Assembly (NCBI RefSeq): GCF_024721305.1
Contig: NZ_JAMXOD010000022.1
Location: 1-40,509, forward strand
Length of the DNA stretch: 40,509 nt
Source: Aequitasia blattaphilus
Lineage (GTDB): Bacteria > Bacillota > Clostridia > Lachnospirales > Lachnospiraceae
Direction of reading: 5' to 3'
In this document: positions 16,182-21,498 of the stretch, piece after piece
Numbering within the stretch: the stretch's first letter is position 1
Layout of the letters: each line of letters starts with the position of its first letter
Position numbers and translations under genes: made by a program
Notes under the pieces: model-generated
Seen by the model: the letters and a program-made list of their open reading frames with translations, nothing else
What the model was told of the DNA's origin: nothing
Database searches by the model: none

Positions 16182-17381
16182 ATGCTTGTACAATTTATGT
16201 TGAAAAATGTTTTGTCTTTTAGGGAAGAAACAAGATTGGATATGAGTGCTATTCATGCATATAAAGAGCATGAGAGTAATTTGATTGATTTCGGAGGGAA
16301 GGAAAAGATTCTCCGAGTTGCAGCAATTTATGGTGCAAACGCAAGCGGAAAATCAAATTTATATTTAGCGATGTCTTATTTCCAAAAAATAGTCAAGGAG
16401 TCTCTAAACAATGTAGAGGATGGGTTTGACTCGGCAATCAAAAAATATTATAACCCCTTCTTTTTTGAACGTGGAGAGGGAGAGGAATCTGAATTTCAAA
16501 TCATAGAGATTATTGATAATTCAGAGTATAGGTATGGATTTCAGTATGATTCAGAGCGAATCATAACAGAATGGCTCTACCAAAAGAGTTTAAAAACAAA
16601 TCGAACTAAAATTATTTATGAACGAATGAATGATAGGGTAGAGTTTGGACAATCGGTAAGAAAAGAATGTGAAGTATATAAGGAACAATTACCAAAAGAA
16701 ACATTGGTATTATCCTTCTTTAATAAACTGAAGTTGAAAACGAGTATATTTAATAATGTATATTCGGGAATCATGGATACTTTTGTTGTTCCACCGGATT
16801 TTTGTGAAGATATTGGAATCATGGAAAGATATCTGCCGCTGGTTATAGATCAAGGAAAAAATGATTTAGTAGAGTTTCTCAAGGCTATTGATGTTGGAAT
16901 TGAAGATATTGAATATGAAGACAATGACGAGAGTGGAATTGAATTTTTTACATTGCATAGAGGGAAAAATGATGATGAGTATTTGCTAAATTTGTTCAAT
17001 GAATCAGAGGGAACATTGAAAAGTATTATCCTATTTATTTATGCACGAATTGCTATTCTTAACAATCAATCTTTATTTGTTGACGAATTAAATATCAAGC
17101 TTCACCCACTACTTTTAAAATTTGTTGTTGATTTATTTTATAATGATGAATCGACAGCGCAATTGATTTACACAACTCATGACACAACGTTAATGGATAA
17201 GAGATTTTTCAGACGAGATCAAATTTGGTTTGTTCAAAAGGATGAATTCGGATATTCTGAATTGGTTGCTCTATCTGATTTTAAAGTGAGATCGGATGCA
17301 TCTTTTGAGAAGGATTATTTATCAGGGGTTTATGGGGGCATTCCCCTTCTTCAAGATTTTAATATGAAAGAAGGGGTGTAG
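16182..17381 (+). CDS. rloA: AAA/OLD-like ATPase, RloA/AbiLi type (defence)
   Basis: A 399-residue ABC/SMC-like ATPase. It starts with the family N-terminus FMLKNVLSFREE, Walker A is GANASGKSN (Lys57), and Walker B is LFVDELNIKLHPLL (Asp301-Glu302), followed by TTHDTTLMD with the switch histidine. These proteins pair with RloB in loci linked to restriction systems and in the lactococcal AbiL abortive-infection system. It starts nine bases after AAGGAGG and abuts rloB with no gap. Base composition looks more AT-rich than the flanking metabolic genes, which fits acquisition as a cassette. The trigger and mechanism are not visible. Confidence 0.86.
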   Translation: MLVQFMLKNVLSFREETRLDMSAIHAYKEHESNLIDFGGKEKILRVAAIYGANASGKSNLYLAMSYFQKIVKESLNNVEDGFDSAIKKYYNPFFFERGEGEESEFQIIEIIDNSEYRYGFQYDSERIITEWLYQKSLKTNRTKIIYERMNDRVEFGQSVRKECEVYKEQLPKETLVLSFFNKLKLKTSIFNNVYSGIMDTFVVPPDFCEDIGIMERYLPLVIDQGKNDLVEFLKAIDVGIEDIEYEDNDESGIEFFTLHRGKNDDEYLLNLFNESEGTLKSIILFIYARIAILNNQSLFVDELNIKLHPLLLKFVVDLFYNDESTAQLIYTTHDTTLMDKRFFRRDQIWFVQKDEFGYSELVALSDFKVRSDASFEKDYLSGVYGGIPLLQDFNMKEGV

Positions 17382-18065
17382 GTGGGAAAAGACGATTTTT
17401 TTAAAAAGAAACGATTATCTCAGGAAAAGAGAAAACATGACTATAAAAGACCTAGAGCCAATTCTTTTCTAATTGTAACGGAAGGTAAGCGAACAGAACC
17501 ACTATATTTCAATGGAATAAAGAAGATTATTCAAGAAAAAAGTGGTGGTGTGATAGATGTGTATGAAAGTCCTGTAATTGAAATTTGTGGACAAGGGTGT
17601 TCAACAGGAAAGCTAATTGAAGTAACAGAGAGAATTGTTAAAAATGCAAAGGTGAATTATCAAAATGTATGGGTAGTATTTGATAAGGATGATTTTGAGG
17701 ATTTTGATCAAGCAATAAAAGAAGGTGAGAAGAAAGGGTATAAGATGGCGTGGAGTAATCAATCCTTTGAGTATTGGCTTTATTTGCACTTTAATTACAG
17801 TGATGCGGCACTACACCGGAGTGAATGGAATAAAAAACTCGACGAAATATTCAAACGATACAATCTAGGAACAGGAAAGTATCAAAAAAATTATGATGAT
17901 ATTTATCAAATAGTCAATAGAAATGCCGGCGTTAATGCTGCAATCAGGAAGGCAAAACGCAGAATGGAAAGTATTGAATTAGGGAGATATAAGCCATCTG
18001 AAGTCAACCCAGGAACAACAGTATACAAGCTTTTGGAAGAATTAAAGAGATTTATAGATAAGTGA
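17382..18065 (+). CDS. rloB: RloB-family Toprim-like protein (AbiLii type, defence effector)
   Basis: A 227-residue RloB protein. After a basic N-terminus rich in lysine and arginine it shows FLIVTEGKRTEPLYF (Glu34), then VVFDKDDFEDF with Asp101 and Asp103. This is the glutamate-plus-DxD arrangement of a Toprim-like metal site. WSNQSFEYWLYLHF follows, also typical of the family. It starts at a GTG directly after the rloA stop, so translation is coupled. Relatives act with their ATPase in abortive infection. Nuclease or other chemistry is inferred from the fold. A bidirectional terminator follows. Confidence 0.85.
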   Translation: MGKDDFFKKKRLSQEKRKHDYKRPRANSFLIVTEGKRTEPLYFNGIKKIIQEKSGGVIDVYESPVIEICGQGCSTGKLIEVTERIVKNAKVNYQNVWVVFDKDDFEDFDQAIKEGEKKGYKMAWSNQSFEYWLYLHFNYSDAALHRSEWNKKLDEIFKRYNLGTGKYQKNYDDIYQIVNRNAGVNAAIRKAKRRMESIELGRYKPSEVNPGTTVYKLLEELKRFIDK

Positions 18066-20472: not shown

Positions 20473-20483
20473 AGTTTAGTGTT

Positions 20484-20572
20484 TTGATGCCTCCCTACGC
20501 TGGTTTTAACCAACAGGTTCAAAGGGTCAGGTTTTACCTTCTCAACTCTAAGTGAGTCCCCCTGCATATAAC
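20484..20572 (-). promoter_or_regulatory. TPP riboswitch (THI element)
   Basis: Read on the minus strand the conserved THI-box blocks appear in order: GGGGGACT, TTGAGA (usual form CTGAGA), ACCCTTTGAACCTG, and GCGTAGGGAGGC. The first and last parts can form the closing stem. A variable P3-like arm, GGTTAAAACC, lies before the last block. It is followed by a terminator hairpin and the thiD-thiM-thiE genes, so it senses thiamine pyrophosphate and shuts off salvage when TPP is plentiful. Confidence 0.95.
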
Positions 20573-20578
20573 TTCTTA

Positions 20579-20658: not shown

Positions 20659-21270
20659 TTAGTTTTGAGATGATAATTTGTCTAAAAGAATAGCAGATGA
20701 ACCTGAATTAATATGAATGCGCTCCTTTTTTAATAAAACACGCGGACGTTGATTTGATTCATAATTGCGTTCACCTTGCTTGAAAGTTGAACAACATAAA
20801 TAATTACACTGTGCAGAGTCATCTACATAAGATTGAACTATGAAGACCAAGCTTACAATATCTGAGTGGTGAGAAATGAGATAATCAGCTTTTATCTGTG
20901 TGTGAAAGGGGTACTTATCAGGCATATATGAAAAAAGATTAAAATCATTATCAAGAGCGTCTTTTATTTGAACGAGTACTTCTAGTCTGGGGAGTACCAT
21001 TTTTTCGTATTGAGTAGCTTTTTGGATTTGTTTCAGATTTAATGTTCCGTTAAGAATTCGAGAAAGTATTTTACTGCGGTTATACTTTGGAAGAGCGAGA
21101 TCTTTGAGATATTGAAATCCTGCAAGATGAGGAAAGTCGTTAGGTGAAAAGGTGAGGTTTATTTCATAGAGTTTGTTTTTATAGCCATAGGTGAGGCTGT
21201 ATTTGTATTCTGATAATTTGTTCCATACGGAAGCAGCTTGATACAAGATATCATTTGTCACATCAATCAC
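20659..21270 (-). CDS. Probable PBECR4-type nuclease-fold protein, standalone
   Basis: A 203-residue soluble protein with no signal peptide. The segment YEINLTFSPNDFPHLAGFQYLKDL and a C-terminal half with short strands (DIVSLVFIVQ, QCNYLCCSTF) and basic stretches resemble PBECR4, a phage-linked domain predicted to have the barnase-EndoU-colicin-RelE fold. I assign this from memory of the pattern, not from a search. The start is a GTG seven bases after TGGAGG; an ATG four bases upstream is followed at once by a stop. A structured RNA with its own promoter and terminator lies immediately upstream. The gene looks AT-rich. It could be a toxin or a phage-conflict enzyme. Confidence 0.62.
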   Translation of the reverse strand: MIDVTNDILYQAASVWNKLSEYKYSLTYGYKNKLYEINLTFSPNDFPHLAGFQYLKDLALPKYNRSKILSRILNGTLNLKQIQKATQYEKMVLPRLEVLVQIKDALDNDFNLFSYMPDKYPFHTQIKADYLISHHSDIVSLVFIVQSYVDDSAQCNYLCCSTFKQGERNYESNQRPRVLLKKERIHINSGSSAILLDKLSSQN

Positions 21271-21286
21271 ATATTATCCTCCATTC

Positions 21287-21321
21287 AAAAATAATATAGG
21301 ACCTTGCACGTGCAAGATCCT
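21287..21321 (-). terminator. Terminator hairpin between structured RNA and PBECR4-like gene
   Basis: On the minus strand AGGATCTTGCACGTGCAAGGTCCT is self-complementary except for one mismatch pair flanking the core (21298-21321). It is followed by ATATTATTTTTG. It stands directly before the GGAGG of the downstream gene, so most transcripts would stop here and only read-through would express the protein. Confidence 0.8.
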
Positions 21322-21465
21322 AATAAAGCGTTTTCATTCGATTCTTAAGAATCTATTCGGTTTGTGGTTGCCGCATAACCCACGATTCAGCTCCACAGCT
21401 GGCTGCATACCGACACAGTCAACTGCTTCAACGCTACGATAGCTGATCATCGCCGCTATCCTCTA
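21287..21465 (-). ncRNA. Structured RNA of unknown class upstream of PBECR4-like gene
   Basis: This fills the 348-base gap between the PBECR4-like gene and ade. The inferred transcript is about 175 bases. Minus-strand pairings visible by eye, as plus-strand coordinates: 21438-21443 with 21455-21460 (GATAGC stem); a closing stem 21327-21332 with 21430-21435; a nested stem 21357-21361 with 21409-21413. Inside the nested stem are two hairpins, 21388-21392/21397-21401 (GTGG loop) and 21364-21369/21377-21383. A further hairpin lies at 21340-21353 (GATTC, TTAA loop, GAATC). The RNA is more GC-rich than its surroundings. No long open frame explains it, and I do not recognise a known RNA family or riboswitch consensus. 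Confidence 0.65.
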
Positions 21466-21470
21466 CAAGT

Positions 21471-21498
21471 ATTATAGCATAAATAAGCTTTAGGTCAA
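21471..21498 (-). promoter_or_regulatory. Strong promoter of the structured RNA
   Basis: On the minus strand TTGACC (21498-21493), 16 bases, TGC then TATAAT (21476-21471): a perfect -10 with an extended TGN element. Transcription should begin near 21465, at the 5' edge of the structured RNA. Confidence 0.8.

Follow-up and report, generated by a model that had tools for sequence, protein, structure and literature searches.

A structured RNA of the drum class and the PBECR4 gene behind it as a probable type III-like toxin-antitoxin module

Type III toxin-antitoxin systems are defined, in the part of the account available (PMC5086642), by one promoter, a pseudoknotted RNA, a terminator and a gene for an RNase-like protein. 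The ToxIN, CptIN and TenpIN systems, which the present locus resembles in layout, have a promoter, a pseudoknotted RNA, an intrinsic terminator and a small RNase-like gene (PMC5086642, same part). The nearest worked precedent is the abortive-infection gene AbiF of C. difficile, for which the accessible portion of the report (PMC12373285) describes an upstream RNA, RCd22 (carrying the abiF motif, RF03085), with a terminator between RNA and gene; this RNA neutralises the toxin and also cuts expression of its gene through termination. The excerpted text of PMC5512222 predicts that PBECR proteins are RNases that need no metal, marked by a histidine within an N-terminal helix and by a serine or threonine in a late strand; it places them within polyvalent proteins of phages and plasmids, or as stand-alone domains of phages and mobile elements, and mentions no RNA partner. 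The RNA class drum is typed by Rfam as an sRNA gene with no stated function, and it appears in general RNA literature (e.g. PMC7657543, in the excerpt available).

The window analysed here is the whole stretch of 40,509 nucleotides from Aequitasia blattaphilus. It carries an RNA gene followed by a protein gene, with the following features.

21471..21498, minus strand: promoter, TTGACC-16 nt-TATAAT with TG ahead of the -10 element, read from the sequence
21438..21460, minus strand: 5' hairpin P0 (GATAGC / GCTATC), outside the Rfam model
21323..21436, minus strand: drum RNA core (RF02958) with P1, P2, P4, P5, the pseudoknot PK1 and P3, from the covariance model and covariation
21297..21322, minus strand: intrinsic terminator hairpin at the junction of RNA and gene, 11 pairs, with a T-rich tail to about 21287
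21278..21282, minus strand: ribosome-binding site GGAGG, 7 nt ahead of the GTG
20659..21270, minus strand: PBECR4 gene, 203 codons (203 amino acids), GTG start at 21270, PF18813 match; predicted metal-independent endoRNase and proposed toxin

As far as the sequence can tell, the order of these elements (single promoter, RNA, Rho-independent terminator, toxin-like gene) is that of type III systems. An earlier note on this DNA had described a promoter with a perfect TATAAT and a TG element, about 175 bases of structured RNA ending in a terminator, and a ribosome site, GTG start and probable PBECR4 gene directly after it. Each of these lies where it was placed: the promoter, on the minus strand, has 11 of the 12 consensus bases, and the RNA, which would start at about 21464 on the minus strand, comprises the drum fold and the terminator hairpin. 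Promoter-like sites as such are not above chance in this stretch (4, versus 4.6 in shuffled sequence). The drum promoter is the best of them and is kept in relatives, with TATAAT (at most one mismatch) in 67 and TTGACA upstream (at most one mismatch) in 64 of 76 distinct drum-relative RNAs. Three terminator-like sites occur between 20500 and 21620, versus 0.5 in shuffles, two of the three being on the opposite strand. The genome holds one match to drum and one to PBECR4.

Two other features of the window were recorded. A TPP riboswitch is found at 20474-20573, ahead of neighbouring thiamin-type genes. About 2.6 kb from the drum-PBECR4 unit, adjoining plus-strand genes at 16182-18065 match AbiLi (AAA_21; PADLOC E 2.5e-85) and AbiLii (RloB; PADLOC E 7.2e-30) and form a candidate abortive-infection pair.

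The RNA, whose class the earlier note had missed, is a member of Rfam drum (21436-21323; 104.9 bits against a gathering score of 43, model positions 1-112 of 112). Identity with 6S RNA or a known riboswitch was rejected, drum being the only Rfam match at this stretch. The same note had counted a match to a known class against its own idea; the match exists, yet it does not refute the idea, since Rfam states no function for this class and in the samples searched it is found chiefly with PBECR4, so that the match points to a likely role for it.

A covariance model of drum together with the 5' hairpin, R1, was built from 19 RNAs: 17 drum matches of the class-sample search, the window RNA and the RNA of a viral locus (L146). 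Over 76 distinct sequences, 84.9% of cells are paired in the whole structure, versus 33-43% once the partners are slid; covariation scores 0.547, compared with 0.241 in shuffles. In PK1, which is absent from the model's structure, the P2 loop pairs with a downstream ACCGA strand; all five pairs show changes in both partners, and pairing is kept in 91.6% of cells. P3, already present in the model and in the Rfam structure line, joins the GCG in the loop of the P4 hairpin to a 3' CGC across an A-rich linker and is paired in 96-100% of cells. P4 is weaker than the pseudoknots (77.6% paired, two of four pairs varying on both sides); in P0 five of six pairs vary on both sides, with 64.1% of cells paired, the lowest among the long helices. 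P0, PK1 and P4 are missing from the Rfam line and extend its structure. Drum is therefore a conserved, covarying double pseudoknot, and PK1 and P3 supply the pseudoknots characteristic of type III RNAs. By our own comparison, this kind of pairing, from a loop to a downstream strand with an A-rich linker in between, is like that of the H-type pseudoknots in ToxI and CptI (PMC5086642, in the part cited above). Drum differs from type III RNAs in being one large double pseudoknot and no tandem array; the window RNA is a single unit, in keeping with the earlier remark that it is devoid of tandem repeats like those of ToxI. The RNA of AbiF carries two short hairpin motifs and no drum fold, and its toxin belongs to another family, in the same portion of PMC12373285.

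The window protein matches PBECR4 (PF18813) with E 3.7e-35 and 122.4 bits against a cut-off of 27, over profile positions 1-187 of 188, and Pfam gave it this family only; no PADLOC model matched. In an AlphaFold2 model (mean pLDDT 90.5), H48 lies in a predicted helix (43-49) and S161 in a predicted strand (157-164). H48 is kept in 52 of 52 sequences and in 28 of 28 diverse members, a serine or threonine at 161 in 52 of 52 and in 27 of 28, and an arginine or lysine at 95 in all 28 diverse members. We propose from this conservation that H48, R95 and S161 would be active-site residues. By our own assignment, H48 and S161 are the histidine and Ser/Thr that mark PBECR and BECR endoRNases, a named domain group with the same active-site pattern in the available text on phage and plasmid polyvalent proteins (PMC5512222). 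The model had no significant match among PDB structures, so that the BECR fold and the active-site geometry stay predicted; PDB sequence relatives were chance-level matches only, and two viral proteins, nameless in the tables, resemble the model by fold.

Kinship with ToxN was rejected: comparison of 52 PBECR4 proteins with 13 of PF13958, the one type III toxin family compared, gave an hhalign probability of 1.1%, and PBECR4 proteins of a sister clade with a tandem-repeat RNA (see below) gave 0.4%. The earlier statement that the protein does not look like ToxN is thus borne out, and the locus differs from ToxIN in this respect. ToxN-like folds did not appear in the structure-match lists, which excludes nothing. 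Profile comparison joined the PBECR4 proteins of the drum clade and the tandem-repeat clade (95%).

Linkage was assessed from the protein side with A1, an alignment of 12 PBECR4 proteins from the drum-linked clade (one member excepted) that used no RNA; the scan therefore samples that clade. The best 80 of 88 relatives in genomes, with one viral locus, gave 81 loci, of which two begin at a contig edge and 79 are testable. With R1, drum lies upstream on the same strand in 76 of these 79 (best 80 of 88 plus the viral locus); seven of the 76 had also contributed RNAs to R1. At Rfam's own threshold, drum is present in 70 of 76 testable loci (78 of the 81 loci were scanned), or in 73 of 79 when L102, L113 and L135, which to judge by their lengths are contigs matched in the class-sample search, are added. 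It is detected by R1 only in L131 and L144 (Lactobacillus) and in L141 (Mitsuokella, weakly, at 29.3 bits). The end of drum falls within 400 nt of the start of the domain in 74 of 76 loci (median 62); the gaps of 826 nt in L084 and 1533 nt in L090, where the gene is intact, look like insertions; the distance at L090 counts against the toxin-antitoxin reading. Two or three drums occur near one PBECR4 gene in L093, L108, L128 and L138, in L093 and L138 also downstream, and other Rfam sRNA motifs, skipping-rope and DUF3800-XI, flank drum-PBECR4 loci (L118:4572-4668 and L070:1872-1919).

Under a loose rule, a terminator-like element separates drum from PBECR4 in all 74 loci with a gap below 400 nt. 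A strict rule is passed by 59 of 64 intact loci, versus 102 of 378 control reading frames, and, in the genome samples, by 42 of the 50 PBECR4 loci that could be tested (two more lie at contig edges), where at least one pass, L044, was scored on a hairpin internal to the RNA. The eight misses include L036, which has neither N-terminus nor RNA, and L165, the second piece of the L169 gene; several others show long-looped hairpins or weak T-tracts by eye.

Among the 76 drum-bearing loci, 64 genes pass an intactness rule, 10 are broken and two are cut by the contig. Drum is thus present at 64 of 64 genes that pass, and the three loci devoid of drum all fail: two are clearly broken, and L139 is short of its N-terminus only (profile positions 15-186 of 186). 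The association (Fisher p 0.004) becomes 64 of 65 and p 0.06 with L139 counted as intact, and the contrast is only suggestive because L139 fails the rule just by its N-terminus. In L085 and L139 the RNA and the N-terminus may have been lost in a single deletion, and the three RNA-less genes are weak evidence. That many linked PBECR4 genes are broken fits any dispensable gene and counts against a toxin-antitoxin reading.

A tblastn search of phage records with the window protein (E 0.01) gave no match, and a single-protein viral scan with it no confirmed relative; the alignment-based viral scan found one viral contig, carrying both drum and PBECR4. PBECR4 was present in 4 of 398 genomes of a phylum-wide draw, two of the four in the window's family. 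Matches were obtained in 21 plasmid records; the three loci read (two Enterococcus, one Streptococcus suis) all carry the pair, with drum above the Rfam threshold. On the Enterococcus faecalis plasmid pEFM9-2 (L148) an AbiH-family gene lies downstream of the pair in the same orientation.

Starting from the RNA, drum was found in 19 and PBECR4 in 29 of 391 genomes of the class, and both in 15 (Fisher p 6e-16). In the class sample, 14 of 24 drum loci have a PBECR4 sequence 56-77 nt downstream on the same strand; among 225 genomes of the window's family, a PBECR4 sequence follows 20 of 23 testable drums, several of these with broken frames and one (L197) reduced to a C-terminal piece. The covariance-model and co-occurrence check suggested earlier thus favours a link from both sides. 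Drum stands without PBECR4 at 10 of the 24 loci in the class sample, among them one at the edge of a contig and five near-copies from genus g31, and at three of the 23 family loci; in L010 it precedes an unrelated reading frame. These loci count against the toxin-antitoxin reading. In the PBECR4-less loci read, the terminator is mostly kept (L007, L010, L011, L013, L018, L020-L023); none was seen at L024, where the contig stops. The drums of L018 and L020-L023 (genomes G016 and G239, genus g31) are multi-copy and near-identical, with strong terminators and no PBECR4, and three of the five sit no more than 300 nt from the end of a contig, as though a repeat element carried them.

Such stand-alone and multi-copy drums would be expected if drum were an independent trans-acting sRNA sharing a mobile spot with PBECR4 by chance. 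We give that explanation very little credence, since order and strand are the same in 76 of 79 loci while the neighbourhoods vary, the commonest shared neighbour family occurring in 12 of 81.

The sequence ahead of further PBECR4 genes was inspected by eye. Where a gene scores above the cut-off and enough sequence precedes it, the order promoter, structured RNA, terminator, gene recurs in nearly all cases; no such layout was seen at L036, the gene lacking its N-terminus, nor a comparable RNA at L160, which is below the cut-off. Some of these loci carry drum-like variant RNAs. In the sister clade (L027, L033, L035, L038, L039, L040, L052, L151, L152, L153, L156, L162 and L164) the RNA has a 5' hairpin and two repeats of about 50-60 nt. 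Each repeat contains a GUUG-loop-CAAC hairpin, replaced by GUCG-loop-CGAC at L039 and L040. At L156 there is only one repeat, and the gene is broken. Three pairings, in registers picked by eye, join the first repeat loop to a segment past its A-rich linker, the second repeat loop to the 5' segment of the RNA, and the loop of the 5' hairpin to the 3' end. Across 10 loci they give 40/40, 40/40 and 57/60 pairs, versus 29.2, 37.6 and 51.3 with swapped partners. The 12 of these 13 loci that were scanned (all but L156) gave no Rfam match to this RNA, which is a candidate new class. A further conserved structured RNA with a terminator, unlike both drum and the tandem-repeat RNA, precedes the genes of a distant PBECR4 clade (L157, L158).

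On a tree of 28 PBECR4 proteins, four RNA classes are distributed with three changes, the minimum, versus 13.8 in shuffles; the drum-like group is not one clade, and the RNAs of L034, L049, L051, L159 and L166 and the types of L048/L155 and L065 lie outside the tree. RNA class thus follows the protein tree. Such a match, and the tight pairing of RNA and gene, would equally be expected if drum served the PBECR4 nuclease as a cofactor that switches it on or as a guide that directs it, the two acting as an RNA-protein effector. We consider this distinctly improbable: an activator would permit loss of either partner, whereas broken genes often still have their RNA and genes lacking an RNA are few, and the likeness of the linker-spanning pairing to ToxI and CptI pseudoknots (PMC5086642, as above) also points away from it.

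The order of RNA, terminator and gene also fits a purely cis-acting attenuator or riboswitch, in which a ligand or stress would refold drum and allow read-through into PBECR4 with no binding of the protein; the AbiF RNA likewise lowers its own gene by termination (PMC12373285, in the accessible portion). Antisense or antiterminator pairing by drum found no support across 63 loci: with its ends trimmed, drum is no more complementary to the terminator arms and start region of its own locus than to those elsewhere. Members of a riboswitch class usually stand ahead of several kinds of gene, whereas drum precedes one gene family almost exclusively in the samples, and PBECR4-less drums mostly retain the terminator in the loci read. 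The lack of excess own pairing, together with the different RNAs that other PBECR4 clades have in the place of drum, makes a purely cis-acting switch the less likely reading, and we regard it as unlikely.

The type III-like reading is backed by conserved linkage, order and terminator, by a covarying pseudoknotted RNA, by kept predicted catalytic residues and by the match between RNA class and protein clade. Because the layout matches that of RNA-restrained toxin systems, drum and PBECR4 probably represent a new family of toxin and RNA antidote, in which the two parts make up a toxin-antitoxin module on a type III-like plan. The single promoter would give drum RNA in abundance, ending at the terminator, and a minor read-through transcript would encode PBECR4, which is predicted to be a BECR-class RNase. 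The pseudoknotted drum would bind PBECR4 and block its RNase, the terminator keeping the RNA in excess. Since binding is proposed to block the enzyme, the RNase would be freed only upon loss of drum, for example on phage takeover or plasmid loss. The type III-like layout put forward in the earlier note is real and conserved, which supports that interpretation in part; its functional side, namely toxicity, neutralisation, RNase activity, direct binding, read-through expression and a phage trigger, we infer.

A wider proposal seems to us evenly balanced: that PBECR4 is the founder of a large family of toxins with no kinship to ToxN, that its RNA antitoxin switched class three times or more along the protein tree (the classes being drum, variants like drum, the two-repeat RNA closed by pairing from a loop to the next repeat, and a further class), and that stand-alone drums, such as the multi-copy ones of g31, are immunity RNAs against incoming PBECR4 elements.

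Both families had already been named; that they form one unit looks new, no mention of the link or of an antitoxin role having been found in the open-licence literature searched, which does not include the original description of drum. Drum stands directly ahead of PBECR4 in many gut bacteria and on a few plasmids, a pairing that opens direct and cheap tests. If the toxin-antitoxin reading is true, an orphan class of structured RNA would gain a function and the RNA-antitoxin systems a new toxin family, in which one toxin fold is matched with several different RNA partners, and this would amount to a natural experiment on how RNA evolves to inhibit an RNase.
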